Positions 18,226-47,070 of a stretch of 64,000 nucleotides of DNA are shown piece after piece. Below the pieces are notes generated by a model that saw only the letters and a list, made by a program, of their open reading frames with translations, did no database searches and was not told the origin of the DNA. Source of the DNA: Microglena sp. YARC. Taxonomy: Eukaryota > Chlorophyta > Chlorophyceae > Chlamydomonadales > Chlamydomonadaceae. The stretch's first letter is position 1. Each line of letters begins with the position of its first letter. The position numbers and the translations under genes are program-made. Location of the stretch: contig CM039462.1 of NCBI GenBank assembly GCA_022414725.1, positions 174,325,697 through 174,389,696 on the forward strand, given 5' to 3'.

Positions 18226-18264
18226 CGAGCTTGCTGTTGATGCTGCTGCCACTGTTTGTTTTGG

Positions 18265-23455: not shown

Positions 23456-23710
23456 CTGTTTTTCTTTCTTAACAGTTGCGCACGCTGTCCTGGAAATGAA
23501 TAAATACTTTGCCTCATTACCAGGCCTGCACTTGAGGGGGCCAGCTCGTTTGCTTGCACTGGAGCCAACCACCATCTGCCCTGTAGTATATATATAGTGG
23601 ACCTCCTTGCAGTGCTGTTAAGTTGGCGATGGTGTGTGCGTAACTATGACACAGTCCAGGGGTAGCCAAGTGGTACTTTTAAAGGCACTGTGAGAACCCG
23701 AGTGATCATG

Positions 23711-23913
23711 GCTTTTATGCTTGGCTACAAACAGTTTCTAGGTAGCTCTCCTGGCTGGATATTCAGCAAAACCTCAAGATACATACCATAGTGCACCTTG
23801 AACCTGGTGCATTCAGCTTTCCAGCACTGCTGATTTTTTGTGTAACCCATTGGCAGCTGACTCAGGAGCTGCCAACAAGCTGCTAAGAAAAGCCAAAAAG
23901 AAAATCCCTGACT
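23711..23913. mobile_element. M1 inverted-repeat element (full copy)
   Basis: Left end near GCTTGGCTACAAACAGTTTC, right end near GGAGCTGCCAACAAGCTGC followed by AAAAGCC. It is diverged but has both arms. A 45-bp palindrome lies directly beyond it (about 23,930-23,973). Confidence 0.6.
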
Positions 23914-24683
23914 GTTGTCAAGCTGTGATTTTACCACGCAGACATCTGATCAGATGGCCGTGTGGTAAAACCACATCATCACTAAGTTTTGATTTATCCC
24001 CCCGTGTATCATTAGATGCAGCCTAGGCTGAATGTACAACACCTTACTTCCGTGTTCCATATTGTTCCTGTTTCCTCGTTCTACGCTGGTCCATATTGTT
24101 CCTGGTTCTATGTTCCTGGTTCCCTGTTTTTCCATGTTCTTACATGTTGTTCCTTGTTCCATGTTGGGCAAGGTCCCTGTTGTTCCTTGTTCAATGTTGG
24201 GCAAGGTCCATGTTGGGCAAGTCCCTGTCCCTAGAGTTGGCTACCCGTAGACTGTAACATACACACATAGATACATGAATGGTCACAGCATCCTCCTCTT
24301 GCTGGATACAACCGGCATGGAAATATGTACATCAAACCTGAGTGCAGTACACTAGTCAGCTGCTCAGCACCGATATACCCTCGTGCTGCTCCACGTAGTG
24401 GTAGAGCAGGGTAAATAAATGGTCTCCAAAACCCACCAGGGTTGTTCTACAAGCTGCGCTTTGCGTGACACACTCAGATTTGGGAGTGTCCTTTGCGTCG
24501 CAGACACAGATTATGAAACCGGTTGCATGTCATGATGCAGATTTTGAGTCCTCTAGAACAACCCTGCAACCCACACGTCCTGGGTCTGAATCCTCGTGGT
24601 CACAATCCTTGCTTCCCATGGGTATCGGAAAAAGGGACAAAAATAATTATGTAGACAGTTGGATGCCTTAATGAGTATAGAAC

Positions 24684-24903
24684 ATAGCCTTTTATGTCAG
24701 CTACGAGCAACAGCTTCTAGGCAGCTCCCCTGACTGGCTAGCCAGCCAAACCTGATGCAACCTAGTGCACCTTGAAGCTCAAACAAGCTAATTCCCTGCT
24801 CTTGACAACTTGGGACTTGGCCCAGCGGCTGGCTCAGGGAGCTGCCTAGAAGCTGCAGCTTGTGAAGCCTGTGAAGCTGCAGCTGAAAATAAAAGCTATG
24901 GGA
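24684..24903. mobile_element. M1 inverted-repeat element (full copy)
   Basis: Both arms are present: GTCAGCTACGAGCAACAGCT at the left and GGGAGCTGCCTAGAAGCTGC plus an extended tail at the right. It sits just downstream of the cryptochrome stop codon (24,958 on minus), so it may lie in the 3' UTR. An AAAATAAAAGC string at its end and a (TTC)n run follow. Confidence 0.75.
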
Positions 24904-24957
24904 TAGAAGCGTGTAACAATTCTTCTTCTTCTTCTTCTTCTTCTTCTTCTTCTTCTT

Positions 24958-25056
24958 CTACTGGTCCACGGAGTCGTCCCCCTCCTCCTCCCATCTCCTC
25001 AGTTCCGGTTCTGTGAGGACAACGACCTTGTTTCCATCCATGGAGATGCTGGCCCC
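24958..25056 (-). CDS. Exon 17: terminal exon of the cryptochrome
   Basis: 32 residues plus TAG after acceptor CTACAG, phase 0, joining exon 16 at Lys969. It reads [20 protein letters not shown] then an acidic end. The close match to the duplicate at 19,069-19,170, with frame and stop conserved, supports it. The C-terminal tail is short, unlike the long regulatory tails of plant cryptochromes. Confidence 0.78.
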   Translation of the reverse strand, partial: GASISMDGNKVVVLTEPELRRWEEEGDDSVDQ

Positions 25057-28000
25057 CTGTAGATATGCATATGCGTTGAAGTAGGTTGAAATAGATTGGA
25101 CTAGGACGAATATGAATGTGTCAAAAATGCGTTGGAATACATGCTTGTGGGTTGAAATAGGTTGGACTAGGTTCAAATTGAATATGTGTTCAAGCATGTT
25201 GTATTATATGCTTGTGGGTTGAAATAGGCTGGACTAGGTTAAAATATGATGAATATGAATATGGGTTCAAATATGTTGGAATATATGCATACATGCATAA
25301 TGCTCAAAATTGAAACATATCACGCCTCTGCTAGGTGTAAGCCTAACACACCCTAGTGCACCTTGAAGCTGGCACAATCTGTTGTCCAGAATGGCTGAAA
25401 ATGTGGGTGTAGCTCAGTGGCTGGCTCAAGGAGCTGCCTAGAAGCTACGGCTCATAGCCAAAAAGAAGAGCTCTGGTCCCAGCATCCCTTAACTCTCCAA
25501 TGTATGGTCAGCACACATACTAAAACACCTAAACACCTGAATATCTAAATTCTCGATACTGACAAGAATTCCACCTAAGGGGCCTCAAGAAGGTCAAATC
25601 CTCCCCGGTCATCAAATTTCTTCAAGTGCGCTTCCATTGCAGTGCGCAGCCTCCTCATGCCTGACTCCCTCAGCTCCTCAGCAGGTGCGGCAAATACACC
25701 TAACCAAATACCTGAGCACCTAAATACCTACATAAGAGATCACCAAAACATTGATATCGATCGGAAGCCCACCTTCGGGACCTCGACAAGGTCAAATCCT
25801 CCTCGATCCGTCCATTCTTTCAAGTGCGCTTCTCTTGCAGTGCGTAGCCTCCTCATGCCTGCCTCCCTCAGCTCCTCAACAGGTGTGGCAAACACACGAC
25901 TGGGGTAGGTGGTGCCAAGCGCCACACCAGCTCGACTGAGCTCCTCAGGGGGGGCGGTCCAAGGCTCGAATAGGTAGTCTAGGGGTAGGTTGGCTAGCTC
26001 CGGAACCCAGCGACGGATGCACTCCCCTGAGGGGTCCAAGGCTCGAGTGGTGGGAGAGAGGGAGAAGTTCCAGGGCTCTAATCCACATCTACCTACAAGG
26101 AGCAAGTTGAGTGGGAGGCATAGATGAATATTTTGAATATGCCAAATGCTCTTATTCAAGATCCAAGGCTTAAATTGTGGGAGGGAAAGAGGGAGCAGTT
26201 CCATGTATCCAATCCACACATGCCTGCATATATATATGAATGTCTCATTCATCTTTATGCACGTATACAGATGTCTAATGACACATTTTGAGGATAAGTG
26301 TGCTTGTCTTATACATATGTATGCATGTTTAATACGTATTTGTGCAGGTATAATACAGTCCAGGCGCAGCCAATGAAAGGGACTTACCCAACCTTGAATA
26401 CTCAATTTATGCATGTATATTACAGTCCAGTGGTAGCCTACTAGGCTAAAAAGAGTTACCACGAATGAAGCACATTTCTAGATTAACAGGAGGGGATAGT
26501 AGGATAATCAAGATAGTCCTATACTATCAGGACGGGCTACAACAAGCATACACAGCACAGGGAAATCAAGTTGTGTGGTTGGCATTGGAGCTGATTGGTT
26601 GGATAAAAATATCCTCATTCAAACAAATAATGATGGTGGTGTGGTAGAAGCATCCTCTTAATGGATCATTGGAGGGAGTGGAGGGAGTGGAAGGAGTGGA
26701 GGGAGGGAGGGAGGGAGGGAGGGAGGGAGGGAGGGAGGGAGGGAGGGTAGGAGGAAGGAGGGAGGGAGGGAGGGAGGGAGGGGAGGAGGGTAGGAGGAAG
26801 GAGGGAGGGAGGGAGGGAAGGAGGGAGGGAGGGAGAGGGGGAGGGAGTGGGAGTGGGAGTGGGAGTGGGAGTGGGAGTGGGAGTGGAAGGGGGAGTGGGA
26901 GGGGAGTGGGAGGGGGAGTGGGAGGGGGAGTGGGAGGGGGAGTGGGAGAGGGTGTGGGAGTGGGAGAGGGAGAGGGAGTGGGAGAGGGAGTGTAAGGGAG
27001 TTGGAGGGAGTGGGAGGGAGTGAAAGGGAGTGGGAGGGAGTGAAAGGGAGTGGGAGGGAGTGAAAGGGGGTGGGAGGAGTGGGAGGGAGTGGGAGGGAGT
27101 GGGAGGGAGGGAGGGGGAGGGGAGCAAGGGGGAGGGGAGTGGAGTGGAGGGGAGGGGTGGGGAGGGGAGTGGAGGGGAGGGAGGGAGGGGAGGGGAGGAG
27201 GGAGGGGAGGTGGGGAGGGAGGAGAGGGAAGGTGGGGAGGGAGGAGAGGGAAGGAGGGAGGAGAGGGAAGGGAGGAGAGCGAGGGGAGGAGAGGGAGGGG
27301 AGGAGAGGGAGGAGAGGGAGGGAGGAGAGGGAGGGAGGAGAGGGAGGGAGAGAGAGGGAGGAGGAGAGGGAAGGAGGAGAGGAGGAGGAGAGGGAGGGAG
27401 GAGGGAGGAGGAGAGGGAAGGAGGAGAGGGAGGGGAGGGAGGGGAGGGAGGGAGGGGAGGGAGGAGGGAGGGGAGAGGGAGGGAGGAGAGGAGAAGGGGG
27501 AGGAGAGGGAAGGGAGGAGAGGGAGGGGAGGAGAGGGAGGGGAGGAGAGGGAGGGAGGAGAGGGGGGAGGAGAGGGAGGGGAGGAGAGGGAGGGAGGGAG
27601 GAGAGGGAGGGAGGAGAGGGAGGGAGGAGAGGGAGGGAGGAGAGGGAGGGAGGAGAGGGAAGGAGGAGGAGGGAAGGGAGAGAGGAGAGGGAGGAGAGGG
27701 AGGGAGGAGAGGGAGGGAGGAGAGGGAGGGAGAGAGAGAGGGAGGAGAGGGAAGGAGGAGAGGGAAGGAGGAGAGGAGAGGGGAGGAGGAGAGGAGAGGG
27801 GAGGGGAGGGAGGGGAGGGGAGGGAGGGAGAGAGACCTTTCAGGGCTGCAGTCCACGAGGTATTTTCTTTTTGCCTTTTCTCAGCAGCTTCTAGGCAGCT
27901 CCCGAAGCCACCCAATGTGCTACACCCCAATATAACAGCACTTCTAGACAGCTTATTGTGTTAGCCGCAAGGTGTACTAGGCCATGTTAGGTGTAGCTGA

Positions 28001-31000
28001 AGCGAGTCAGGGGAGCTGCCTAGAAGCTGCTGCTTGTAGCGGAAAATAAAAGCTATTTAGTCCACATCTGCCTACATAGATGTGGGCAGCATGGGTGGAG
28101 ATTTGTTTTTTTGGTAACAATCCTCACATTGAAAATAATGATGGTGCTTTTGTGTAATGCATTCATAAAAACATAACTGATTTGCTAACCGCTATTTCTA
28201 AGTATATTTGAAGCTCTCGTTTTGAGCATAACACGGCTGGCCTGGGCCACTCACCAGCATTCTGCCACATTATGGCGTTCACTGGTCAGGCCAGGTCAAC
28301 ATCGAGCAGTGACTCATGGACCCATCATGCACCCTCAATCCACATTCCACTAAAGTTATGTGTGAGTCAGAGCGTAACAATGGCGCAAAGAACGAAACTG
28401 ACTGGGCTACTCACCAGCATTCTGCCACATCATGGCATTCACTGCCAGGTCAGCATCGAGCAGTGCTTCGTGGAACCATCGCGCACCCTCCGTCCATGTC
28501 ACACCAAAGTAATGTGTGAGGCAGCAAGCAACCACCATCCGGCTATTGGGACTGATCCAGCCTGTGTGTAAGAGCTCACGCATCCCTGAAAGAAGAGAGC
28601 CAGAGAAAAGTTAGTGGTTTTTACAACATGTTTGGTGGTTAGCCCCAAAGCAAGCGAACGGGCTGGCCACCTCAACCTCACGCCTCGTCATCAGGGGTAA
28701 CATTTATTATTTACTTATTTATTTAGCAATGGTCTTCAGTACTTTAGCCTACTTGGGTACCTACGAAATGAAGCATACATTTGTATAGGCAGGACAAACA
28801 CAGTGAGCAGCGCAATTGCAACCTAACAAAGCTGAGTGATTTCTGAGCTGCAAGTGGTGGTTAGACCTGCACCATACATTTCAATACGGTAGACAGGACA
28901 AACCACGGTGAGCAGTGCAAGTGTATGCTAACAAAGCCGAGTGCAACATTCAATTGCCTTTGCCTTTGCCTGTAAGAGTAGGGTCAGAGCAAAGTCAATT
29001 GTCTTTTGTACTAGGGGGTCTCAAAATTAACTTAGCCCTTACAATGATTTTTCACATTTATTTCTTGTATGGAACATAACACTATGCATGAGTGCAATGC
29101 ACATCCCTGTGCCATGTGCACGTGCCTGACCCCCAGCCAATCCAAATATAGAAGGCTCCTCTCCCTTCCTGATGACTCAATTACAAAAGCAATGTCGCAA
29201 CACATCAAAACAAGACCTAAATAGGAACCCACCCCATGGAACCCATGGACGCTTGTCTTCATTGACATTATCTACAGGTGGCATGGTGAGTTATACCTGA
29301 TTATGAAAACATACCAATAAATTTGCCAAGCCATGCTGTTGTGGCCATGTACTATGCATAAATTACTACCCACACCCATGAAAACCACACACTCATGAAC
29401 ATCCCATACGCACTGAGAACCCCTTGGATCTATTGTGGCATGTCATGGGGTGGTAGGCCCCAGGCCTTGCACTCATGTAACATGCAACACCTAACGTTGC
29501 TCTGGCATTCAAGGCCTTTGGCATGCAACAAGTCGGCGCTGCCCCAAAATACGCACCTCTTAGCTTTCTACATGTCAAGGTTTCCGCCACCGCCAACCAC
29601 TCCCGCGAGCACCAGGAAGATTTCCCTATAGATAGCCGTCAACTAGGGCGCACTAAGTATCGAAAATAGGCAGTGTGGGATTCGGAATTCGAATTCTTCG
29701 CCGTTAGTTTAATTGTGCAACGACAAGGTAACTTAATTTTGGCACCCCCTAGACTAAAGCCTACTTGGGTACAGCACCTACGGACTGGAAATTTGAAAAA
29801 TCTTACATCTGGCAACTGGGTATTGAGCTCAGGGAACCTTCCTGCTCGCTTGCGTTGGGGAAGGCTATCGCATCCTTGTTGCCAGGCGGCCGAATCGAAA
29901 AAGTAAAGACTATCGATAATTAGTTTTTGCCCCCTTCGTCTACCTACCAATTTCCAGGCAATACTAAATTCCGTGAAATCCAATGCTGGGGAAGGCTACC
30001 GCATGGACTGAATCATACATTTGAAGAGGCAGGACAAACACGACCAGTGCAAGAGCGCCTTTCCAAAGCAGAGAGCAACATTCATTTGCATGACTGAGAA
30101 AACAACAACAGGAAACAAGAGTGCCCCATACATACATTCAATTTCATGTAGCCGAGTTGTTTACCCCAGAGGGAGGGGCAGAGCAAAGTCAGTGGCATTC
30201 AATCCTTGTAGCAATTCAGCAGATGATTTGGATTTGTTTGTTCGAACAGGTCATAGGTTGTACTTTGTACCTATAAATTTGGCCTCACAATTCTGAGGAT
30301 TCTGAGAATTCTGGGAGAATTGTTGTCTGGAAATTTTGTCTGGAAAAGTCGAGCAGCAATACTATATGTTGACTTATCAAATCCAAATCATCCGCTGAAT
30401 TTCTATCAGCCTATTTAGGCATATCCTCCAGCCTAGCAGGCTACCCTTGGACTGTAACCTGTATGTACTATCCCTTTAGCACAGTTTGTCTACCCCTGGA
30501 CTGCACAATTCATACGTTAAAATCCCTTTAGCCTAGTTGGGTACCTTTAATTGTATAATTGTATAGGATGGGTAAGTAAATAGCTATGTAAGCTACCATT
30601 AAGGTCCCCGGTCTGAGTCTTCATGAACTTTCATATTTATATTAAAACATAATTTATCATGAACCCTTAAGTCTTGGACTGTACCACGCATACACACAAG
30701 CCTCTTTAGCCTAGTTGGCTACCCCTGGAGTCCTGGACTGTACCACGCATGCGCACAAGTCTCTTTGTTGCTTAACCCTAAGCCATACCTTTTTTCCGCT
30801 ACTTGTAGCGATTGCTACCTGGGACCCTGTTTTGGACGCTCAACCTCCCCTGCCCCGCCCCCCACCCTCCTGAACCCTTTGGGCCACCTACCAAAATCGC
30901 TACCAGGAGCCCAGCCTTAAAAGATACCGAATCCCTGATCGCAACCATAATACCCCTTTTCTGAAATGAAATAAATCTCTGACCTAAGCTACAACTCACA

Positions 31001-34000
31001 TACATACAAGTCCCTCCAGTCTGGTTGGCTACCCCTGGACTGCAACAAACGTACATAAAAAAGTAATGATGACGCCTGGTGGGGTTTGGTATTAACTATT
31101 GAGGGAGCCCTGTCTTACGGCGGTAGAGAACGGGCTGCTACTTTACCTGGACAGTGCTACCATGGCGGTTGACAGCGGCCGCGAATTGAACCCTGCACCT
31201 TCTAATTTCAGCGAGCTCGACGAAACGGGATAACTCGCGTACATACTTGTACATAAACGTACATTCATACATATACAGACATGTACATAAAAACATATAC
31301 AGGAACGTACATACAGACTTATTCAGAAAGGTACATACATACATACATATACAGAAACATGCATGCATACATATACAGAAACGTCCACACATTCATATAC
31401 AGAAACATGCATGCATACAAATACAGAACAGCGTTGTACCTGCATCAATCACCGGGTATCCTGTCCTGCCACATTGCCAGGCTGCCAAAAGCTCGGAGGA
31501 CTGAGTCCCCTGTTCTAGCACAGTGGAAGCTCCATCGCCTGCCCCCCACTGGACATCCTGATAAGGCCTATAAAATATAGACAGAGGAGGGTCACATTTA
31601 GTTGCAGCACATTTCTGTATTTGTATTTCCAGGCCTGAATGTCTTGTTCTGGCTCTGTGAAAGCCCCCCACTGGGCATCCTGAGGCATATGAAAGGTGGA
31701 GGGGGGCACACTTAGTTGCAACATATTTATGTATATATATTTGAGCATGCGCTGTCTTGTTCTGACTGACATAGCGGAATCACCACCACCTGCCCCCCAC
31801 TAGATATCCTGATACAGCCTGAGTAAAAGGAAAGGAGGAGGACGGCACAATCAGATGCAGCACGTTTCTATACATTAGTATACATATATATGAGCATTGA
31901 GTGTCTTGCTGTGACAGACATAGTGGAATCACCATTGCCTGCCTCCCACTACATATCTTGATACAGCCTGAGAAACTGGAAAGGTGGAGGGGGGCACACT
32001 AAGATGCAGCTTGTTTCTGTACATCTTTTACAGGATTTTTTTTCTGACTCTGACTTACAGTGGAATCACTACCGCCTTCCCCCCTACCAGATATCCTGAT
32101 TCTCTCTGAGACATAGGAAAGGTGGTGGTGATGGTAGTGGTGGGGGTGGGGGTGGGGCACTCAGATGCAACACATTTCTGTACATGTTTTTCAGGAAATT
32201 AGCTTTTTCTTCTGGCACACTGGAAGCTCCATAGCCTCTCCTCCCAGTATATCCCGACACGGCCTGAGAAACCCACTCCATTTCACCCCCACCCCACTCC
32301 ACCTCACATCACCCAAACCCACCCCACATCACCCCCACCCCCACTCCACATCAATATGAAGCAAAGCTGACCTTTTCAAACTTGTTGTAGGAAAACCACA
32401 CTCACACTCACACTCAAAATCAAAAGCTGATCTTTTTCAACCTTGCTGTAGGAAAACCACACTCACACTCACACTCAAAATTAAAATCAAAAGCTGACCT
32501 TTTTCAAACTTGCTGTAGGAAAACCACTCTCACACTCACACTCAAAATCAAAATCAAAAGCTGACCTTAGCAATTTTGTTGTAGGAAAACCACACTCACA
32601 CTCACACTCAAAATCAAAATCAAAAGCTGACCTTTTCAAACTTGCTGTAGGAAACCACACTCACACTCACACTCAAAATCAAAAGCTGACCTTTTCAAAC
32701 TTTCTGTAGGAAAACCACACTCAAAATCAAAATCAAAAGCTGACTTTTGCAAACTTGTTGTTGGAAAACCACACTCACACTCACACTCAAAATAAAAATC
32801 AAAAGCTGACCTTCTCAAACTTGTAGTTGCCAAGTAAGGCCAATGGTAGAGCTGCCAATATGCCATATCCCTGGAGATCAGCTTTATGCTGCATGTTCGA
32901 GCAAGGGCCCTATTCCTGGAGGGCAGAGGGCGGTGGAAAAGTGAGAATGTGTGAAAGCTAAAACAGTAGCTGATTCAGACGGCACATACTAAGTCAACTG
33001 ACTTAGCGGTACGGATTCAAACTGAAATTACTGACAGAGCATGGCCAAGGCAGACTGAATAAATTGACTCAAAATAAATTGACTAAAAATAATGACAGAA
33101 TAAATTGACTCAAAATAAATTGACTAAAAATAATGACGGAATAAATTGTCTCAAAATGAATTGACTGGGTAAACTGACTAAAAACAAATTGATTGAATAA
33201 ATTGACTCAAAATAAATTGAATTATTGAACCAATTTAAAGTGATCCAACTGCATGAGTACTACGTACTTGCATCTCCGTAGCTTCTGGTTGTACCTAGAG
33301 TCTATTACCTCCGCCTAGAAAGAGGATGAGATTCTTCCTGCATTGCCGTCGCCCGGTAGTCAAGCTCAGGTGCAGGAGTGGTCTGCGAAAACAAACACCC
33401 ACGGTAGCCTTCCCCAGAGCAATCGAATGGGAACATTCCCTTAGCTCCACGCCCCATTGCAAGGCGCAAGTAATCCGATTTTTCTGTTACCTCCTAAGCT
33501 CCTCTTCCTTTCCTAAACCCTAAACAGTACAGAGCAATACACAGTTGTACGTCCGTATCTTCTGCCAGTACATCCTGAAGTACACTACCTCCTAAGCTCC
33601 TCCTCTTCACAAAAAACACATGTAAGACCCAGTGATCACAACGTACTTGCATCTACGTAGCTTATGCCAGTACATCCTCGGGCTGAGCATCCCCCATCGC
33701 AGGTACGGTGACAGCCTGGAAACAGTGCTGTAGTCACGCTCGCTAGCCTGGCTGCCAGCCATACTGTCATCGCCACTCGTGGAGGCTGATTCTGTTGACT
33801 CCGTCGATTCTATTGATTCTGCTGATTCTGTTGATTCTGCTGATTCAGTTGGCTCTGTTGTAATAGCCCCAGGGAGCTGCTCAGCTGCAAGGTAGTCGTC
33901 GAGAAGTTGCAGAGCCGAGGTCTCCGACACAGTCCCCCATGCTGACTGCACATGGGTGGACCAGTCAGCAGGGCGGTGGGATGGGCCAGTCAAGCTGGCT

Positions 34001-37000: not shown

Positions 37001-38205
37001 AGTGTAGGTATGTATGTATTTATATATGTTACATTCCAGGGGTTGGCCTAATAGGCTAAAAGGAATTGCCCAACCACGCAAATAAATGCAAGTTGTGAAT
37101 AAACTTGTAAATAAACTTATAAATATTAAAATAAATCACACTACGATCCGCGCATCCTACCTAGGCCACCGCATAAGGCAGCTGGCGGTTCCGGAGCCAC
37201 GCTAACAGATTCAGGAGGTGGCAATGCTTCTGGCGGGCCTCCACGTACACCTTGGTCCCATGCCTTGTAATATGCATCCAGACTGCCAAAGCGATTTACA
37301 GATCGCTTGTGGCCTGCCTCCACACGAATATCCCAGGGCTCCCTGCAAGAGTCGTCAAATTGTTGGTTTCAGTTTCAGTTCCAGTATTCTTTTTGGTTTA
37401 GGTTTGAGGTTAGAATTGGAAGGGTTGGTCTCTGAAAGCCATACGAATGACGATAAAGAACCTAGTGGAGTTGGACGACGGAAATCCTATCAAGGCTTTT
37501 GTTGAGACTTGGCGGACACATGTTTTGAATTTGAATTTGAATTTGAATTTGAAAATGAACTGAGGGAATATAAGTATGAGGGAATATTAATCAGCCAACC
37601 TCCCACTCACCTGAACAAGGAGCTGTTACCTTTTTGGAGTGTCATGGAGGTGAGTAATGTATAGACGGATGAAGGAGAAGCGAGCAGTATACTGAAGAGT
37701 GTGAGGGAGGTAGCCAACACATGTAGGAGAGTCAGAGAGGTTACAAATGAATTCCAGGATGTAAGAGAAGTGACCAATAAATTGAACGGTGTAAGAAACT
37801 CACCCACCTCAACAAGGAGCTGTTGAAGACATTGAACACCACACCAGAGTCCTTCAGCCGTTCTTCAATTTTCATGTCTGCAAAGTACGTTGCAGGCTCG
37901 TAGCGGCGGTTCAAGAACACGTGCGAGGCGCCCATGGCTGTTGCAACCTGGGATCAAATGCTTTGTCATTATTACATTGCCATAGGCAGCCCATTGTTGA
38001 CACAAGACAAGCACGCACAACACATTCGAGGGGGTGTTGGTGGATGTGTGTGGTGGGGTCTTCCAACCTTCTTCAGCTGAAAATAAATCAGGATTGTTGC
38101 TTTGACCACGGTTGATTCCAAGCCCCAGGCAATGCAACTTGTTGGTTTATGTGTTTGCCTACTGTACAGTCACCCCCCCATTCCATTATTCCATCCATCC
38201 ATCTT

Positions 38206-38239
<34 letters not shown>

Positions 38240-41200
38240 CATCCAGTCAGTCAGTCAGCCAGCCATCCACTCAACCAATCAATCAATCACCATCCATCCA
38301 TCCATCCATCCATCCATCCATCCATCCATTTATCCATTTATCCATTTATCCATCCATTTATCCATCCATCCATCCATCCATCCATCCATCCATCCACTCA
38401 ACCAATCAGTCATTCTGTCAGTCAGTCAGCCAGCCAGTCATCTACCAGTCTGTTGGTTGTTTGGATAATATTCCATTTATTCCTTTCTTTCTTTGTTCTT
38501 ACCTCTTCTATGGCGCTGGCATAAGGTCCATTCTTGAACACTATGGACGCGCCAGCTCCAATCGTTGTTGTCAGATCTCGATCTAAAGATTCCAGAGCCA
38601 AGCGTTTCCACAGCTGGGAGGCAGGGCCAGGACGCCAGCTACCACCACACTCAATTTCTTCGCCATCCTAAGGACACACCAAAACAAACAAGGGGTAACT
38701 TTGTTTCTTGCCTTGCTCTGGCACTTGCTTTGGAAATGGATACTTTGCATTAGCATGGGCTGTCCCCCAAAGCTTAGACACCAACGCCCACCCCCTAGCC
38801 CCAAAGCCCAACTCACAGACCACCAACCTTTATAATTAATTTTGAATTATCTTATTTGTTTGTCCTATTTATTTTTATTTGTTGAGGTCAAGTAAGCCCC
38901 TTTAGCCTAGTTGACTACTCCTGAAATGTGACATACAGGCATAACAAACACACCAAACACCAAGGAACCAATTCATACAGCACATATAATCTTGACATGC
39001 GTGAATTGGATTTCAACGTCATCACTGAACAATGGGCAAGTCCCGTTAGCCAAAGTTGGCTACCCCTTGACTGTAAAATGCATTCATATACACATATACA
39101 TACACGACATGCACGCACAACCTACAAGCACGGCATACATGCCCAACATACATACATGACATGCATGCACATACACGTCCCCCATGGTGCACCTCAAGTG
39201 GTGAATGGACATACAAGAAGATAACAGCACCACCCAGTTGCCGGGCCATTTACAAGCAATACATAGCCTACCTAACATCCACAACCCCATGCCCATTGCC
39301 ATACACAACATGCATGCGTACACATACAGATCCCCCATTCCGTAGCCCTTTGGCGTACCTCAAGTGGTGAGTGCACGTACAAGAAGATGACCACACCACC
39401 CAGTTGCCGGGCCAGTTCAACGGCCCCTGTCAAAGCTGGTTGATCATGAAGGCGCAAATCCTTCAAAGAGTGTGTGAGAGAGGTGACACATGAATTGAAG
39501 GATGGCCATAATGAACGGAAGGATGTCCATAATAACAGCCCCTGTCAAAGCTGGTTGATCATGGAGGCTCAAGTCCTTCAAAGTGATCAGATCAAAGGGT
39601 GTGAGAGAGGTGGCCAACACATTTAGGAATTCATCAGAAAGGTAACACCTGCATTGAAGGATAGATGATTGACCACCATTTCAACGGCCCCTGTCAAAGC
39701 TGGTTGATCATGGAGGCACAAGTCCTTCAAAGGGATCAGATCGAATAGTGTGAGAGAGGTAGCCAACACATTTTTGAGAGTCAGTGTCTCAGTGAGGTGA
39801 CAAGTGAATAGAAGGATGAAAGAGTGACCACCATTTCAACGGCCCCTGTCAAAGCTGGCTGATCATTGAGGCGCTAGTCCTTCAAAGGGATCGGATGGAA
39901 GAGTGTGAGAGAGGTGACTAAAGAAAAGTGAGCAGTATGTTGAAGAGTGTGAGGTGGCTAAAGAAAAGTGAGCAGTATGTTGAAGAGTCAGAGGTGGCTA
40001 AAGAAAAGTGAGCAGTATGGTGAAGAGTGTGAGGTGGCTAAAGAAAAGTGAGCAGTATGTTAAAGAGTGTGAGAGAGGTGGCCAACACAGTTAGGAGTGG
40101 CAGAGAGTTGACGCATGAATTGATGGATGCAAGAGTGACCACCATTTCTAAGAGTGTGAGAGAAGCGACTAATGGATTGAAGACCATCTGGGGGTACACA
40201 AGTTCAAGACGTAGCCCAGGGTAGGCTGAGAGCATGTATACAGGCTAACAAAAAACGTATTGCTGCCTCAAGCAAATTGTAGGGGAAAAAACCTGATCTT
40301 CTTTTTTGTTTCCTCTCTTTTCCTCTCATCTTCCCAACATTGCCTTGGGAACCTCAGGCCCCATGTTCTACTTCCCAATCCAACCGAGTTAAGCACAACA
40401 GTGCCTTAGGCAGGCAGGCAGGTGGGTAGGTAGGTAGGTAGGTAGGCGGGTAGGTAGGCAGGTAGGTAGGTAGGATTTCATTCCCCTATCGTACCTGTCT
40501 GAGCCATACGATGACATTCTTTTTTGTGGATGAGGTCAGGGGCGCCTTGGGAGCCTCACGTCCCTTCTTTGCCCCCTTCTTCTCCTTCTTGCCCTCCTTA
40601 CCCTTCTTCCCTTCCTTCCCCTCCTTGCCCCCCATCACAGCCTTGGCGGGATGAGAGGGTCCAGAAGTAAACACGATGAAATTCGGGTCCATGAATCCAT
40701 CCACTGAACTTGTGGACTCGGCAGAATCGTCCTCAGGTGTCGTGGCTTTCAGCCGTGAGAGGTCAAATTCTTGATTTGTATCAATCAACTCTTGGGCTAG
40801 GATTTGGATGCGGGACCTGCACAGAGGTGAACAACAAATTGCAACAACACAGTGTAAGAGAGGTGACCAGAGAGTATAATAGTGGGGGATGCAGTGTATC
40901 GCCATGAGGTTTGTAGAAGTTACAATTCAGGGGGAGCCAAATGGGCCTGATGGCTTTAACGTTTGCTGCCATGCCTTTTGTGAATGCTTCTATTGTTTTA
41001 TTGATGCTTGGATTTGTGTCGATCAACTATTGGGCTAGGACTTGAATACGGGACCTACAAGCAATGCCGAGTTATGTCATGTGTGGAGTTACAGTCCAGG
41101 AGAAGGCAAGTGGGCTTGATGGCTTTAAGGTTTGCTGTTATGCCTTTTGTGAATGCTTTGCAAATGTTGTGTTGATGCTTGGACTTGAATTTCTTGCTTT

Positions 41201-44200
41201 AGTCAGCTTTAGTACATAAAAATGATGTTAATTTGGTATAAGTGAGGCTAAAGCCACAATTACATTTTCCAACCTCAAACTATGAAGCTTGCTAAGGTGC
41301 ATATATTAGAGTAGTAGACCATGATGCTATCAAAAGTCAGCCCATACCAGTCAAGGGTCTCCCAGCCTATCATCTGTTCCCCACCCTCCTCCTCCTCGCC
41401 CTCCTGCTCCTCGCCTTTCTCCCCTCCCCCCCCCCCCCCCTCATCACCTCTAGGAGCACAGGCATCATCACCCTAATCCTCTATATCCTCAACACTCAGA
41501 CTTGGCCTGCAACACTCACCCCTCAAGGATTTCCCACCCCCTCATCTGCTCCCCACCCCTGCCCCTCGCCCTCCTCCTCCTCCCCCCCCCCCCCCCCTCA
41601 TCATCTCTAGGAGCATTGGCATCATCACCCTCATCCTCTATATCCTCAACACTCAGACTTGGCCTGCAACACTCACCCCTCAAGGATTTCCCACCCCCTC
41701 ATCTGCTCCCCACCCCCTGCCCCTCGCCCTCCTCCTCCCCCTCCTACCCTTCATCATCTCTATGGGCATTGGCATCATCACCCTAATCCTCTATATCCTC
41801 AACACTCAGACTTGGCCTGCAACACTCACCCCTCAAGGATTTCCCACCCCCTCATCTGCTCCCCACCCCCTGCCCCTCACCCTCCTCCTCCTCCCCCTCC
41901 TACCCTTCATCATCTCTATGGGCATTGGCATCATCACCCTCATCCTCTATATCCTCAACACTCAGACTTGGCCTGCAACTCTCACCCCTCAAGGATTTCC
42001 CACCCCCTCATCTGCTCCCCACCCCCTGCCCCTCGCCCTCCTCCTCCTCCCCCTCCTACCCTTCATCATCTCTATGGGCATTGGCATCATCACCCTCATC
42101 CTCTACATCCTCAGCACTCAGACTTGGCCTGCAAAACTCACCCCTCAAGGAATTCCCACCCCCTCATCTGCTCCCCACCCCCTGCCCCTCGCCCTCCTCC
42201 TCCTCCCCCTCCTACCCTTCATCATCTCTATGGGCATTGGCATCATCACCCTCATCCTCTATATCCTCAACACTCAGACTTGGCTTGCTACACTTACAGG
42301 TCAAGGATCTCCCACCCCTTCATCTGCTCCTGCTCCTCTCTTTCCTCCCCCTCCTCTTCATCATCTCTAAGGGCATTGGCATCATCACCCGCATACTCTG
42401 TATCCTCAAGAACTAGAATTGGCGTGCAACACTTACCGGTCAAGGATCTCCCACCCCTTCATCTGCGCCTTCTCCTCTCTCTCCTCCCCCTCCCCCTCCT
42501 CCCCTTCATCATCATCATCCCTGGGTGCATTGGCATCAAAACCTTCATCATCTATGTCCGGCACATACTCAGGCTTTGGAGGGCTTGGGGGGGAGGCCGC
42601 TGCAGGGGTGTTAGCGGGTGAAGGAGGAGATGGTTTGGGGGCCTCCCCGGGGGGTGGAGGGAGGGTCTGAATCGAGCCTGGTACCAGGAATGGCTGCAAG
42701 GGGTGTGGGTTGGGTGGGTGGGGGTCAATGAGGGGAATGGGGGGATGATTGGTTGGTTGGTTGGTTGGTTGGGTAGTTGATTTGAAGGCGCAATGTGCGG
42801 CTTTTTTGCATGCAACCTTGTGATGGACTTGTTTGTTCATCGACTAGTGCATTCATGCATGCAGACACAGACACATCGCCCACATATCAATAAATTCATG
42901 ATCTGCATGCATGCACATACAAATACTAGCACATCATGGTTTCATTGGTAGGTGGGAGGAAGGAAAGGGGAGGGGGGGCGGAGGAAACGGTAGAAGGGAT
43001 GAATGAGAGGGGAGGAAGGACCCTGTATGAACTTACATCAATGCACAGGTTGAAGAGGGGCAATCTTTTGGGAGGCACTTCTACTCGCTTTCTTACACCC
43101 AATCATTTGGCATTTGGCCGCTCTTACGAGGAATGTAGTACTGGATTTCTTACCCACAATCATTTGGCACTTCAAAGAAACTGGTAACAGCACGTGGAAG
43201 CCAACAAACAAGCGTGATCCTGGCTGAGAAAGGCTCCTTAGGCGACACCAGGCGGGGCAATATGAAAACGCATGGCAGGACAGTTTGTAAACGCATGACA
43301 CAGTATGGACTAACACCAATGCACAGGTTGAGGAGAGGCGCTCTTTGGGGGGCATTATTACTGACTTTCTTATACAGTTATACATAATCATTAAACAGTT
43401 CAAATAAGTAAGAGCATGTGGAAGCCAACAAACAAGCGTGATCCTGGCTAAGACAAGCTCCTTAGGCAACACCGGGGGAGGCAGTGGGAAAACAGATGGC
43501 AGGATAGTTTGAAAATACATGGCATGGTCTGGACTTACATCTGGTTAGGCAACAGCGGGGGAGGCAGTGGGGAAACAGATGGCAGGATAGTTTGAAAACG
43601 CATGGCATGGTATGGACTTACATCTCGTTAGGCAACAGCGGGGGAGGCAGTTGGAAAACAGATGGCAGGATAGCTTGAAAACGCATGGCTGAGACAAGCT
43701 CTTTAGGTGTCATCGGGCGGGGCAGTAGGAAAACAGATGTTAGGACAGTTTGAAAAATCAAGGCATGGTATGGAATTACATCAGTGCACAGGTTGAGGAG
43801 GACCACCAGCCTATTGGGGACACTAGGCACCATCATGGATCCGGAGGAAGTGGGGAGGACGGAGGAGGGGGTGAGGGAAGAAGGGAAGTGGAAGAGGGAA
43901 GGGGGAGCAACTTACATCAATGCACAGGTTCAGGAGGGCAACTCTCTTGGGGACGCTGGGCACCATCATTGCTAGCTCCTGCAGGGGAGACAAGTGTCAA
44001 GACAGAGTATCTCAATACTTGATTGGCATACAAATGTAATTATATAACGCATGCATAAATACAGAATGATGATGTAGAAAATTGTGAAGAGCGACGCTGG
44101 GCACCATCATTGCTAGCTCCTGCAGGGGAGACAAGCTTGGAGCCCATTTATCTAAAAAGCTGATTGGCATACAAATACAATCCTATGAAGTATGCATGTA

Positions 44201-47070
44201 CCGGTATACAGACGAATGATATAACAAATGTGTAAAGGAGGGCCCTAGGCACCATCATGGCCAGCACCTGCAAGGCAGAGCAGCATCAAGACCAATTATC
44301 TCAATAGTTGATTGGCATAAAAACTTCATCATAAGAATAGGATTGTTAACATCATGCTGGTCCCGATTATATATATACTTATGACTGGGTTCAAGATTAC
44401 GTTTACATGATGCGACATGTCATTGATATAATGGAGTGATGCAGCAAATTTGCAAAGCAAAACATATATAAATTTAAATTTCATGTGAATTCGTGATGAG
44501 CGCAACAATGACATGCATCGACTATGATTATTACGAGTGCAATACGAGTATTATAACATACATAAAAATGTGCTTTAGAAACCTCACCTTGAAAAGCAGG
44601 TGGCCTTCAGGTCCAGCTGATCCAAAGATGGCGAAAAAACGATCACGATACTCTATGGGTGCAATGCTGCCCATCCTGGGGGTGAGGAGGTGGGGGTGGG
44701 TGGGGGTGGGGGTGGGGAGGTGTAAATGAGGAGGTGGGAATGGGGAAGGGGTCTGTGGGTGGGGAGGTGTTGGGGGGGAAAGGTCAGTAAGGTATTGAGA
44801 GAGGACTAGGAATGTGTGAGGGGGCGGACCCCCACACCCCAAACTGGAGGTACATGGTGATGAGCACCCATACTACTCGCACAAGCCTATGTAATTACAT
44901 TCTGTACTCAAGAGTGTGGTTTAGTTAGTGGTGGTGAGTGCCTTTATACTACTCATGGTTACTCTGTCCGCAGGCGGTGAACAGCCTGATGGTTGTCAGA
45001 ATCAATCTAACTAAAACTACTTGCATACTATCTGCGCACCAAAACAAACCCATTAACTAGAAGATTCATGCCGTTTAATAATTTCTGTCCTGATTGTTTA
45101 GCTACTGGACCTACACATATTTATTTCCAACTTGATTAGCTGTATGAAATGCACAGAGACCCAAATGTATTCCTTTCCATCTTGCTTTGAAATGCTATTG
45201 TAAACAAATCATTTGCAAAGAGCCGCTGAATTTTGCAAGACAGCAACTAATAATATCATTATAACGCATACATCATAACGCACACTAACTTATTAAACAA
45301 TAGGGATGATATTACATGCATAGCAAGACTACTTCTAGAAGCTCACAACTTAAATTTTGGAATCAGAAAGGAGTACCTCTTGTTCTGGAATAATTTGCAG
45401 GTGCTGTGATATGATGGTTGACGGTAGAAGAGCAGTCGAAGATGAAATGCGTTTCATATTGGAATGTCCGCTATACGCTGAGGATAGTTTTTTTTTTTAG
45501 AAATGAACATTCAACCTGAATTGGTGGATAAAAAACTCCTGTATGAAGCTGGTCATGAATCTTGATTCCTTTGAAGGATGGAAATACTTAATACAATCTA
45601 ATACAATTTATTAAAAATGCGATAATGATCGCACAATTAAATTATAATCCCTGATGAGATGATGATTTAATTATATAGTAGAATTAAATGATCACTGAAG
45701 CACTTTGTCAGGGCCCCTGTCAGTACACCGATTGTTTGGGGAGCAGTTCATCAGTGCTTTTTCTTTTTAAGCCCTTCCTATACGGTTGGGCAAGTCCCTT
45801 TACCCTATTTGGCCTACCCCTAGACTGTAAACAAATGTAATGATAACGCCTGGTGGGGCGTGGTGTTAAGGGAACCCGTCATACACGGGTAGGGAGCGGT
45901 CTTCTACCTCAACTGGACAAGCTACCATCGCGGTTGACAACGACCTGCAACGCCAAGAGCAACCGAAGAGGGAATCGAACCCCCGACTCTTCATCCTCAA
46001 AGTGATTTGGTCTACCACTAGACCAATGCATATCACTGAAAGGGGCTCCCTAGACTGTAACATACATACAAGTCATAACTGTTATAAATTAAGTTCCGAT
46101 TGTAAAATGTATGAGGCAGTATCTTATGCACATAGACAACTATATTATTTATATTGTCATGAGCGTCACTTACATGTATTCCTTTCCATCTTCCTTAGCG
46201 ATTTCAAATGCAAAGGGATCATCTGCAATGAGGCGCTGCATGTTGAAAGACAACAATCGGTTTCGATCCTGGGGAGGGAAGGGGTAGGCCATGTTCCACT
46301 CCTCCATAATCTCTTGAAAGTCGATTGGGCTGATCATGTGTGGGTAGCCACCTGCTTCGGGGGATCTAGGAGGGGGCATGCCTGGGTCAGGGAGGCCCTG
46401 GGAGGGCAGGCAAGGGTGAGGTGGGGTGGTGGTTGATTGGAGGGGGTGTAGGCGGGTGGGGCGGGTGGGGTGGAGGGGGTAGGGTGGAGTGGGGTTAAAG
46501 GGAGAGGCGGGGGATGCGTGCAGGGGTGCAGGGGATAGGGGAGCGGTTGTGTATGTTTGTGTGGAGGGGTGCGGCCATGCAGGCTGGGTGGTGGTAGGGG
46601 CGGAGGGGGCTGGCCTAAGGTTGAGCGTGGGTAGGGTGGGATACCGGGGTAGGGGCGGGATGGGATGGGGCACTTGCGAGCGTGCTCGTGTGTGTGATGC
46701 ATGGGTTGTTGTGTGGGGTGTGTGCGTGTGTGTACGTGTTTGCGTTTTTTATTTGTTTGTTTGTGTGCTCGAGTTTATGTTTGTGTTGGTGTTGGTGTTT
46801 TGGGGTGTGATAGGGGTGGGTTTGTGGGGTAACTGCTACCTGAGTGCTGCCGTCCGTATCATCCACACTGCTCATGGCCACCACCACTCTCCTCCGACCA
46901 TTGGACCGCATTTCACCGATGCATGCTTCACCTCGCCCGATGTTTGCTCTAGAGCGGTGATCGAGCGACGGATAGGTCGGAATTGTCCCACACGTCCTCC
47001 AGGGGGGGCGGTCATGGGAAGACGTGGATGCATGGCGAGAGATGCGGGGACCTCCCGCTGCTGACGGCAT
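24958..47070 (-). CDS. Cryptochrome/photolyase-family protein with long N-terminal extension (17 exons)
   Basis: Exons from 5' to 3' on minus: 47,070-46,840; 46,397-46,174; 44,675-44,588; 43,978-43,916; 42,693-42,437; 40,816-40,495; 39,460-39,359; 38,667-38,503; 37,947-37,808; 37,342-37,161; 34,022-33,643 (3' end uncertain); 33,382-33,309; 32,870-32,811; 31,567-31,440; 28,585-28,415; 26,092-25,773; 25,056-24,958. They sum to 3,006 nt, 1,001 residues plus TAG, with matching phase at all 16 junctions. Residues about 389-960 form the photolyase-homology region, which binds FAD and senses blue light or repairs UV damage. The Trp triad aligns as W770, W836 and W859, and Asn855 sits at the flavin-N5 position, as in photolyases rather than plant cryptochromes (Asp) or animal ones (Cys). 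Class (repair or signalling) cannot be settled from sequence alone. The start codon is the least certain part. Confidence 0.88.
25080..25300. repeat. Tandem repeat of about 65-70 bp in intron 16
   Basis: About four units containing GTTGAAATAGGTTGGACTAG with GAATATG spacers. Copy A has only about one unit (19,190-19,260), so the array expanded after the duplication. Confidence 0.7.
25573..25690 (-). pseudogene. Partial copy of exon 16's 3' end inside intron 16
   Basis: Reads [20 protein letters not shown] and [11 protein letters not shown] in one frame, then a TAG where exon 16 has AAG before its donor GTGGG. It is clearly a duplicate of the 3' half of exon 16 plus donor region. It may be skipped as intron. 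Confidence 0.7.
25773..34022 (-). CDS. Exons 11-16: FAD-binding domain of the cryptochrome
   Basis: Exon 11 holds [20 protein letters not shown], a Ser/Thr/Glu-rich insert ([16 protein letters not shown]) unusual for the family, and [20 protein letters not shown], the start of the FAD pocket. Exon 13 gives [13 protein letters not shown], exon 14 DVQW and [11 protein letters not shown], exon 15 [19 protein letters not shown] and [17 protein letters not shown], exon 16 [28 protein letters not shown] and GVALGTTYP. All are textbook photolyase/cryptochrome motifs in order. The exon 11/12 junction is the weakest: exon 11's 3' end occurs in several tandem copies and no single donor is clearly best. 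Confidence 0.88.
26669..27835 (+). repeat. 1.17-kb homopurine (GGGA/GGAG)n tract in intron 15
   Basis: The plus strand is almost wholly G and A, mainly GGGAGGGA, GGGAGT and GGGAGGAGA units. On the coding strand of the cryptochrome gene it is a polypyrimidine tract inside intron 15. ORFs here (Ser/Pro/Leu or Gly/Arg/Glu only) are compositional. Mirror-symmetric homopurine DNA can form intramolecular triplexes. Confidence 0.93.
27862..28056. mobile_element. M1 inverted-repeat element in intron 15
   Basis: Arms CAGCAGCTTCTAGGCAGCTC at the left and GGGAGCTGCCTAGAAGCTGC at the right, ending GAAAATAAAAGCTAT. The core differs from other copies. It lies between the homopurine tract and the partial exon-15 copy. 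Confidence 0.7.
28243..28365 (-). pseudogene. Partial copy of exon 15's 3' half
   Basis: Colinear with the second half of exon 15, including its end (CAGAATGCTG then GTGAGT), but with an in-frame TGA and small indels. It lies about 50 bp downstream of the real exon 15 donor. Confidence 0.75.
28590..31430. other. Intron 14, with dispersed repeats
   Basis: No exon seen. A unit of about 70 bp containing GGCAGGACAAACAC occurs near 28,780, 28,870 and 30,020. Fragments of a dispersed element (CCCCTGGACTGTA with GGCTACC) occur repeatedly between 30,420 and 31,040. (ACATACAT)-rich sequence fills about 31,230-31,430, just after the exon 14 donor. Confidence 0.5.
31063..31232 (-). mobile_element. tRNA-derived SINE, second copy (diverged)
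   Basis: On minus it has a degraded B box (GGTTCAATTCG) and shares with the SINE at 45,838-46,030 the 3' segment containing CCCCACCAGGCGT and ATCATTAC, and the middle GTTGACAGC / ACCATGG region. It is adjacent to the same CCTGGACTGYA element as the first copy. Confidence 0.6.
31640..32270 (-). repeat. Tandem partial copies of exon 14's 5' end with acceptor
   Basis: About five copies at a spacing of 110-160 bp. Each contains an acceptor-like CTCAG/ATCAG, then GATRYCYAGTGGGGGGCAG and a decaying version of the first half of exon 14. The 31,640-31,690 copy reads [13 protein letters not shown]; others carry TAG or TAA. The intact exon is 31,440-31,567. Confidence 0.75.
32362..32810 (-). repeat. 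Tandem copies of exon 13's 3' end plus donor
   Basis: Seven units 55-67 bp apart follow the real exon 13 donor. Each contains ACAAGTTTGAAAAGGTCAGC-like sequence (exon end and donor GTCAGC), then TTTTGATTTTGAG and GTGTGAGTGTGAGTGTGG. The array fills the 5' side of intron 13. Confidence 0.85.
33056..33225. repeat. AT-rich tandem repeat in intron 12
   Basis: Units of 16-40 bp based on AATAAATTGACTCAAAATAA and ATTGACTAAAAATAATGAC. Confidence 0.8.
34345..34450 (-). pseudogene. Partial copy of exon 11's 5' end with acceptor
   Basis: The acceptor (TGTCGCAG) and then CCTTGAAAGATCTCATCCA match exon 11's start (CCTTGGAAGAGCTC). Similarity continues to TGGTCCACCCA and a CATGGGGG segment. It lies upstream of exon 11 within intron 10. 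Confidence 0.7.
34650..34800 (+). repeat. Dispersed element E1
   Basis: Sequence with CAGGGCCCC, TTCAGTTCATCAGTGCTTTT, GGGCAAGTCCCTTTAGCCT and ending CCCCTGGAYTGTA. Further copies are at 45,690-45,832 (plus) and, inverted, near 36,480-36,640 and 36,735-36,865. The last segment also occurs alone many times. No ORF. It may be a short non-autonomous element of unknown class. Confidence 0.65.
34846..36043 (-). mobile_element. 5'-truncated LINE copy in intron 10
   Basis: About 1.2 kb closely matching the 3' end of the LINE at 61,011-63,822: the same C-terminal reading ([16 protein letters not shown], then FMNGNGTK), the same 3' UTR and a short (TAATG)n tail on minus. It starts inside the reverse-transcriptase ORF, as expected for truncated target-primed insertion, and is in several frames. 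It has the same orientation as the host gene. Confidence 0.9.
37161..39460 (-). CDS. Exons 7-10: antenna-binding alpha/beta domain of the cryptochrome
   Basis: Exon 7 gives [17 protein letters not shown] and [14 protein letters not shown], exon 8 [20 protein letters not shown], exon 9 [14 protein letters not shown], exon 10 [20 protein letters not shown] and [12 protein letters not shown]. These match in order the photolyase N-terminal domain: LRLxDNPAL, W..G.AS.WL..SL..L, N..YEP...., and the PPPxP linker. Phases 0/0/0/2/1 are consistent. Intron 8 has a (CATC)n tract (about 38,195-38,400). Introns 6, 7 and 9 hold partial copies of exons 7 and 9. Confidence 0.9.
37608..37627 (-). repeat. Short copy of exon 9's 3' end with donor
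   Basis: AACAGCTCCTTGTTCAG followed by GTGAGT, matching exon 9's end (AACAGCTCCTTGTTGAG then GTGGGT). It is about 180 bp into intron 9. Confidence 0.65.
38195..38400. repeat. (CATC)n tetranucleotide repeat in intron 8
   Basis: Long ATCC/ATCT runs with CAGT and CAAT interruptions. Apparent ORFs (Ile/His/Pro/Ser only) are artefacts. Confidence 0.9.
39190..39250 (-). pseudogene. Copy of exon 7's 3' end with donor
   Basis: Reads [18 protein letters not shown] followed by GTGCACC, almost the same as the end of exon 7. It is about 110 bp downstream of the real donor, in intron 7, and still open. Confidence 0.8.
39540..39890 (-). repeat. Three partial copies of exon 7's 5' end with acceptor
   Basis: Copies at about 39,540-39,585, 39,680-39,730 and 39,838-39,885. 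Each has TTTGAAG then a version of [14 protein letters not shown]. They lie upstream of exon 7 in intron 6. A further array of about 40-bp units (GTGGCTAAAGAAAAGTGAGC) fills about 39,911-40,070. Confidence 0.8.
40495..47070 (-). CDS. Exons 1-6: N-terminal extension of the cryptochrome
   Basis: Exon 1 is Arg/Ser-rich ([18 protein letters not shown]) and could be a targeting peptide. Exon 2 has [20 protein letters not shown]. Exons 3-4 encode [28 protein letters not shown]. The 12-residue loop S171-E182 has Gly at 6, Leu at 8 and Glu at 12 of the EF-hand pattern but lacks Asp at 1 and 3, so it is a degenerate EF-hand at best. Exon 5 is Pro-rich, then acidic ([25 protein letters not shown]), ending KGWEILDR. 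Exon 6 has [18 protein letters not shown], a Ser/Glu linker and a Lys/Gly-rich stretch ([15 protein letters not shown]) that could act as a nuclear-localisation or nucleic-acid-binding segment, then VIVWLRQ, the first strand of the photolyase fold. No known family was recognised before VIVWLRQ. Phase agreement supports one transcript, but a separate upstream gene remains possible. Confidence 0.72.
40990..41190 (-). repeat. Decayed copies of exon 6's 5' end
   Basis: At 40,990-41,055: GTCCCGTATTCAAGTCCTAG and CAATAGTTGATCGACACAAAT match the exon 6 start but contain TAG. A second, shorter copy with its intronic flank lies at about 41,095-41,190. Confidence 0.7.
41380..42420 (-). repeat. Tandem 156-bp array made of exon 5's 3' part plus donor
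   Basis: About seven units, the inner ones 153-157 bp apart. Each resembles exon 5 from [15 protein letters not shown] to WEILDR plus the donor. Inner units read [19 protein letters not shown] followed by TAG and have donor GTGAGT. The unit nearest exon 5 (about 42,290-42,420) is open throughout ([23 protein letters not shown]) with donor GTAAGT in the same phase, so it could serve as an alternative exon. On plus the array gives long but meaningless ORFs. Confidence 0.85.
43030..43850 (-). repeat. Copies of exon 4's 3' end plus donor in intron 4
   Basis: Copies near 43,035-43,080 (LFNLCID then GTAAGT), 43,310-43,360 and 43,780-43,835 ([19 protein letters not shown]). They are mixed with a repeat of about 115 bp containing GGCAACAGCGGGGGAGGCAG at 43,440-43,750. 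Confidence 0.75.
44087..44280 (-). repeat. Copies of exon 4's 5' end with acceptor in intron 3
   Basis: At 44,087-44,135: CCCCTGCAG then GAGCTAGCAATGATGGTGCC. At 44,236-44,280: CCTTGCAG then GTGCTGGCCATGATGGTGCC. Each diverges after the first half of exon 4. Confidence 0.8.
44880..45690. other. Intron 2, no exon seen
   Basis: Unrecognised sequence. At about 45,405-45,560 there is a stretch on plus with slight similarity to the LINE C-terminal region ([22 protein letters not shown] in minor frames), probably a small relic. Nothing else is supportable. Confidence 0.35.
45838..46030 (-). mobile_element. tRNA-derived SINE
   Basis: On minus it has a pol III A box (TGGTCTAGTGG, 46,025-46,015) and a perfect B box (GGTTCGATTCC, 45,981-45,971), 33 nt apart as in tRNAs, then an unrelated body and a 3' end with CCCCACCAGGCGTTATCATT. 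The tRNA-like head lacks a good acceptor stem, so it is not a tRNA gene. A related copy is at 31,063-31,232. Confidence 0.8.

Follow-up and report, generated by a model that had tools for sequence, protein, structure and literature searches.

The 64-kb window under study, by which we mean the whole stretch of DNA that was analysed, carries on its minus strand a photolyase/cryptochrome gene (24958-46397) with 15 firm exons, e2 to e16, an unbroken reading frame and GT-AG introns. In the direction of transcription the exons, each placed on the minus strand by reading frame and homologue alignment, are e2 (46174-46397), e3 (44588-44675), e4 (43916-43978), e5 (42437-42693), e6 (40495-40816), e7 (39359-39460), e8 (38503-38667), e9 (37808-37947), e10 (37161-37342), e11 (33647-34022), e12 (32811-32915), e13 (31440-31567), e14 (28415-28585), e15 (25773-26092) and e16 (24958-25056); a first exon is tentatively positioned at about 46840-47070. 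The gene model was tested by reading frame, by alignment to five green-algal homologues and by Pfam, the encoded protein matching FAD_binding_7 (5e-54) and DNA_photolyase (1.9e-25). Its top homologues are green-algal photolyase/cryptochrome proteins (Chlamydomonas eustigma, Chlamydomonas sp. UWO 241, Botryococcus, Sanguina), which marks the source of the DNA as a green alga, and identity to the five aligned proteins amounts to 36-44%. The N-terminal region encoded by e2-e6 is common to at least three of these five, and within it (46174-46397, 40495-43978) there is a weak Pfam match to PAH_ZNF598 (E 0.0005, under the curated cut-off), which recurs in four of the five homologues scanned, i.e. 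in five of six members when the present protein is included. An intronic read-through piece of the gene has no match among solved structures or phages.

This model has one exon fewer than the 17-exon numbering of the original prediction, whose exon 12 (~33309-33382) was dropped: it would break the frame, and e11 joins e12 directly in frame, so that it is unnecessary. Its place is overlapped by a decayed copy of the e11 donor (33253-33345). Exons 4, 5, 7, 9, 13, 15 and 16 of that numbering, named there for donor-side copies, are e4, e5, e7, e9, e12, e14 and e15 here, and exons 4, 6, 7, 11 and 14, named for acceptor-side copies, are e4, e6, e7, e11 and e13. A codon-usage scan of the 64-kb window yielded no other intact gene with introns for which a model could be built. 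At 49284-52144 lies a gene that we call BTB-BACK-like, with 10 homologues that are 59-64% identical, some of them with PF07707. Its second coding piece contains a stop and is flanked by two 321-base inverted copies (98% identical, with ends TATCAGC/GCTGATA), so that the whole has the look of a pseudogene, disrupted by the stop and by inverted-repeat elements; as a control gene for introns it is therefore uninformative. A 21-base repeat pattern of the window had 0 matches in viral contigs, and a search of prokaryote contigs with the window's reverse transcriptase gave 8 pattern matches, of which 0 were confirmed.

The introns of the photolyase/cryptochrome gene contain partial copies of the gene's own splice junctions. 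These adjoin 15 of the 28 junctions, as 9 donor-side and 6 acceptor-side families with altogether 37 copies, aligned with hand-chosen limits, and are present in 12 of the 14 introns, e8-e9 and e13-e14 having no counted copy. With an initial 14-exon model, junction queries of up to 80+80 bases were aligned to the introns and compared with 100 dinucleotide shuffles, making 26 comparisons, of which 18 lay above the shuffle maximum. Fourteen of these 18 reach the exon side (donors e4, e5, e7, e9, e11, e12, e14 and e15; acceptors e4, e6, e7, e11, e13 and e15), and 11 of the 14 alignments extend 5 bases or more beyond the junction in either direction. The e2 donor family was added by the 15-exon model and a profile search, which brings the total to 15. 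All the donor-side copies originally named at seven exons, and all the acceptor-side copies named at five, were recovered at 7-46 SD above the dinucleotide shuffles, which rule out chance or low complexity as their source. The e11 donor (z 10.8) and the e15 acceptor (z 6.4, on its exon side only in the shuffle test) were also found by the profile search; these two and the e2 donor are additions to the twelve cases originally named.

Some candidates were left uncounted, either as too weak, namely an exon-internal match of the e6 donor (score 27 against a shuffle maximum of 26; profile E 0.03) and the e14 acceptor (profile E 0.008), or, for the donors of e8 and e13 and the acceptor of e16, because the match is confined to the intron side; from the profile listing, self-matches beside query ends, weak matches and a few one-side-only matches were removed by eye. 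A second control aligned every intron with junctions belonging to different introns and gave a best score of 42-59 in 6 of 26 comparisons. Three of the six are explained by a short exon, e4 or e7, whose opposite junction served as the query, and one is the e4 acceptor on e4's own donor copies, which leaves two without explanation, the e13 donor on intron e4-e5 (42) and the e4 donor on intron e14-e15 (57). A further weak cross-match without explanation places the e9 donor on intron e6-e7 (score 40). In the two cases where own copy and cross-match compete, the own copy scores higher (71 vs 42 and 109 vs 57).

The families, all on the minus strand, differ widely in copy number and unit length. 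The final 83 nt of e2 recur once in intron e2-e3 (45107-45246), about 1 kb from the original and with the GT not preserved. Upstream of e4 there are two copies of the intron end, the AG and the 5' end of e4 (44038-44323), and on its donor side, within 42972-43838, three copies (43770-43838, 43307-43354 and 42982-43076), the first two of which are separated by an 83-bp array. The e5 donor is followed by seven copies of the exon 3' end with GT (41336-42400, unit 156 bp), and the e6 acceptor copy (41004-41061) lies inside a 169-bp direct repeat (40918-41187). Three copies of the e7 acceptor (39528-40148) have a unit of about 155 bp with a 40-bp sub-array, and a copy of the e7 donor (39138-39288) is found by both junction alignment and profile search, as are those of the e14 donor (28239-28370) and the e15 acceptor (26160-26228). 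The short e9 donor copy (37601-37628) is the weakest case counted (22 of 24 bases, z 7.1). Around e11 there are an acceptor copy about 420 bp from its original (34317-34498) and, by junction alignment, two decayed donor copies (33490-33578 and 33253-33345, spanning 33253-33578). Intron e12-e13 holds seven copies of the e12 3' end with GT (32330-32752, unit ~59-66 bp) and five of the e13 acceptor (31631-32271, unit ~122-149 bp), and the e15 donor copy (25526-25702) has a period of about 198 bp. A 67-bp array at 25063-25288 ends some 6 nt before the e16 acceptor and was not counted as a boundary copy. The pattern had been located at 25573-44280, where it is indeed present, and extends beyond these limits, to the e2 copy and to a duplicated locus at 19.4-20.15 kb. 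Only two of the 15 families, those of e2 and of the e11 acceptor, are currently out of tandem contact with their originals, and these copies too would presumably have arisen in tandem. As a separate observation, a segment of intron e9-e10 (37672-37776) is 75-78% like the region of the e7 acceptor array in intron e6-e7; the two lie about 2 kb apart across e7, e8 and e9, which simple tandem duplication does not explain.

Donor-side copies lie downstream of their exon and carry the exon end with the donor, and acceptor-side copies lie upstream and carry the acceptor with the exon start, a geometry which is forced, because only the outermost copy remains joined to the rest of the exon. Intron sequence is part of every family except that of e2, and the copies therefore originated at the DNA level. 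As originally noted, the copies decay while the true exon stays intact: the frame of the gene is continuous, and 27 of the 37 copies have an in-register stop (13) or a frameshifting indel (25), the other 10 having neither across the aligned part. Differences between copy and exon amount to 19.5, 24.1 and 30.4% at codon positions 1, 2 and 3, copies within one array not being independent, and this gradient fits a constrained exon facing a free copy. In each of the eight single-copy families likeness is greater on the exon side than on the intron side, by 0.15-0.44 with hand-set limits; this is expected if constraint acts on the exon while original and copied intron sequence both drift. Four of the seven multi-copy families differ: for the donors of e5 and e12 and the acceptors of e4 and e7, likeness on the intron side equals or exceeds that on the exon side.

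The splice dinucleotides themselves are retained in 33 of the 37 copies (GT in 21 of 24, AG in 12 of 13), which plain decay predicts poorly. On the acceptor side AG is the best-kept dinucleotide of all offsets, with a family mean of 0.97, against 0.60 on the exon side and 0.36 on the intron side. The copies do form trains of decoy splice sites, as had been proposed, with median scores close to those of the true sites: 5.6 for decoy donors (true sites 7.3; 95th percentile of intron GT sites 5.7) and 6.4 for decoy acceptors (true sites 7.4; intron-site 95th percentile 5.3). Retention and scores of this kind would suit copies that are selectively kept as functional decoys or alternative splice sites which tune splicing. 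We regard this as quite improbable, for the copies have decayed at the protein level, the intron sides of single-copy families are poorly conserved, and at donors several exon-edge positions are retained at least as well as GT (0.82). Moreover, low scores were obtained for several decoys (donors: two of e4, one of e11 and two of e12; acceptors: three of the five of e13), alignments centred on junctions favour matches at junctions, and many copies descend from one through array expansion.

The behaviour of the larger arrays was compared in four cases, and a homogenised centre is clear in one of them. The e5 array has five central units with 92-99% likeness to one another, the unit of the true exon and the first and last copies being 66-87% like the rest; likeness among copies is 78-96% for e12, 81-89% for e7 and 56-82% for e13, without a clear centre. 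The near-identical central e5 units are the ones that an assembly could miscount, and to this extent one might take the arrays for assembly artefacts. This is, however, exceedingly unlikely, as the mean exon-side difference of the copies in the 15 families is 15-42% and indels are copy-specific, a divergence that assembly does not create.

Further information on copy number comes from a tandem segmental duplication some 5 kb in length (15686-20354 vs 20157-25891, pieces 71-89% identical), which carries the 3' end of the gene. The duplicated end (18941-20151, minus strand) contains copies of the e15 end at 20038-20151 and 19841-19968, a decayed one at 19421-19486 and an open copy of e16 at 19069-19170. 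The third e15-end copy scores 40, while none of 1000 single-base shuffles scores above 28. The number of repeat units is thus unequal between the gene and its duplicated 3' end, one allele being at hand: the e15 end occurs three times in the duplicated locus and twice in the gene, and the 67-bp unit before e16 once in the duplicated locus against three matching stretches in the gene. Conservation of the second, open-frame e16 copy does not exceed that of its surroundings, with 92/99 identical aligned bases in the exon, 72/78 upstream and 103/109 downstream, and the idea that it does was abandoned. The same duplication also carries a small plus-strand gene-like reading frame (~17000-17421 and ~21582-22002). 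At 21994-22206 one copy of this frame has an extra piece of about 195 bases at its apparent donor, with inverted ends CAGGGTACTAC/GTAGTACCCTG. On either side of the piece stands ATGTAAGT, apparently an 8-base target duplication by which the donor is repeated, and in the other copy of the frame ATGTAAGT occurs once; this looks like a splice-site duplication made by a transposon insertion.

An analysis of intron composition, with intervals drawn by hand, assigns 5001 of 18698 intron bases (27%) to the boundary families, 3311 (18%) to recognised transposon sequence and 2111 (11%) to satellites, with a remainder of 8275; transposons were recognised by within-window matches only, which makes their share a lower bound. 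The boundary families make up 47% of intron e3-e4, 59% of e4-e5, 75% of e5-e6, 60% of e6-e7 and 86% of e12-e13, and the last, originally described as largely two meeting arrays, indeed has 1064 of its 1243 bases in them. For these five introns the proposal that introns grow by duplication across junctions holds; as the overall main mode of growth it is not supported, given the 27% share, and transposons and satellites are much of the remaining intron DNA, so that "main mode" is true for some introns only. Nor does this one gene support the proposal as a statement on the genome at large. When copies, satellites and transposons are taken away, 8 of the 14 introns measure 323-437 bp, the others 139, 502, 583, 1079, 1088 and 1871 bp. 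The eight are close to the median intron lengths of six core-Reinhardtinia algae, which are given as 198-343 bp (PMC8226300).

Among the transposon sequences, a 1.2-kb piece in intron e10-e11 (34847-36048) is 94% identical to 61025-62229, which overlaps an 849-aa reading frame (61297-63846) with an RVT_1 (reverse transcriptase) domain. Such transposon copies in the window are what could suggest that the boundary arrays, too, were spread by introner-like or other mobile elements. We consider this extremely improbable: of 36 far direct and 28 inverted matches none falls in a boundary array once the 5-kb segmental duplication is set aside, and within the 64-kb window there is no introner-type dispersal of the arrays outside that duplication, the exceptions being the segment of intron e9-e10 that matches the e7 acceptor array and the three weak cross-matches (scores 40-57). 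In intron e14-e15 there is, in addition, a 1.2-kb pyrimidine-rich tract of CCCT type on the coding strand (26671-27834), which gives long mechanical reading frames that are no evidence of genes.

The kind of structure found here is already known, contrary to the original view that it lacked a standard description: the amphioxus "mirages" are such structures (PMC3087553, PMC3902484). Mirages are tandem units of 10-160 bp across 5' or 3' exon-intron boundaries, with AG/GT signals in many but not all repeats, the true exon at the cluster edge, a homogenised cluster centre with divergent ends, and copy-number instability between alleles or cells (PMC3087553). In lancelet PGBD5, imperfect 60- and 108-bp repeats across splice sites are described, and troponin C is also mentioned (PMC3902484). 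The alga resembles these descriptions in its boundary-spanning units (~60-200 bp), in the duplication of both boundaries, in AG/GT in many repeats, and in the true exon at the cluster edge; the first three are structural features by which mirages are recognised. A homogenised centre with divergent ends is clear in the e5 array, one of the four compared. Unlike the mirages, which concern one or few junctions in a cephalochordate, those of the green alga involve 15 of 28 junctions of a single gene and their copies are mostly decayed; regular splicing is suggested by RT-PCR in amphioxus (PMC3087553), whereas in the alga only the intact reading frame speaks for it.

Other known cases share single features. 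In potato RdRp a duplication across the intron-exon boundary created a new intron (PMC4974935), and this case, one in Drosophila (PMC2891723) and those in a review (PMC3443670) have tandem duplication in common with the alga, in potato crossing the boundary and with the extra part spliced out; unlike these cases, in the alga existing introns lengthen and no new intron was seen. Human paralogues have variable internal tandem repeats at exon-intron boundaries, with intron-type units of 9-30 and 62-126 bp (PMC2812944), which similarly overlap the boundary and may be spliced out, but can yield alternative splicing and novel introns, whereas in the alga the reading frame is left alone. In the literature searched, which was mostly outside subscription journals, we found no report of mirage-type arrays in algae, nor of a single gene with so many duplicated junctions, and as far as searched it is the lineage and the density that are new.

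Whether junctions are special can be judged from how often repeats cover them. By hand count, junction-spanning families are 15 of 18 when units of at least 40 bp are considered and 15 of 23 when smaller units are included, against a share of 16% expected from random placement on the present introns and 33% on collapsed introns; with family counts and unit lengths set by hand, the excess has P values from 6e-10 to 0.002. If boundary copies stay detectable twice as long, P becomes 0.004-0.1 for collapsed introns and 1e-6 to 2e-4 for present ones. In an automatic test a strong local copy is found at 9-10 of 28 junctions and, away from the boundary families, at 63-94 of 944 intron points, and local repeats occur at 373 of 1341 intron points compared with 4% of 1841 points outside the gene. 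Junctions are thus probably over-represented among duplications, and all three of these counts argue for a duplication process targeted to splice junctions far above chance, for instance through paused polymerase, R-loops or AG|GT microhomology. Once array-internal points count too, however, local copies are no more frequent at junctions than at interior points of the same introns (9 of 28 junctions, where 8.3 would be expected; P 0.44). Furthermore, the exonic share of the copies varies widely, from about 9-18 nt (e12) up to about 125 nt (e11 acceptor, e15 donor), which indicates no fixed cut point and is as expected from random breakpoints, unlike a cut guided by the splice site. Short starting introns, together with easier detection and slow decay on the exon side, may suffice for much of the excess, and we hold a targeted process to be unlikely. 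It is also unlikely, and the most far-reaching reading of the data, that junctions are preferred sites of tandem duplication in this lineage, with introns growing outward from their ends and decoys persisting long enough to shape the choice of splice site.

We find it probable that the arrays are mirage-type boundary minisatellites, i.e. ordinary short tandem duplications that span junctions, are tolerated and in some cases become expanded. Starting from an intron apparently a few hundred bases long, a short tandem duplication, with a period of ~60-200 bp where the array is clear, would happen to cover a splice junction and thereby place a second partial exon and a second splice site in the intron. 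Intact mRNA would come only from the copy that is still continuous with the remainder of the exon, which is the 5'-most donor or the 3'-most acceptor copy, and such duplications would be tolerated because this exon-joined copy stays the spliced one. As long as the spliceosome picks that site and splices correctly past the decoys, as the continuous frame suggests, the extra copy would be nearly neutral, intronic and free to decay. Slippage or unequal exchange may then have built some of the pairs up into arrays with as many as 8 units, with longer introns as the result.

Intron lengths vary greatly, and the part of intron growth that is not due to transposons is little understood; the gene described here shows one way in which introns can lengthen without harm to the protein, and it makes the rate and placement of junction duplications measurable in a full genome. 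Its 15 junctions at different stages of decay, with many decoys scoring near the true sites, are a natural experiment on how the spliceosome chooses the site that is joined to the exon. If the pattern is confirmed in other genes, mirages would be extended from lancelets to green algae.
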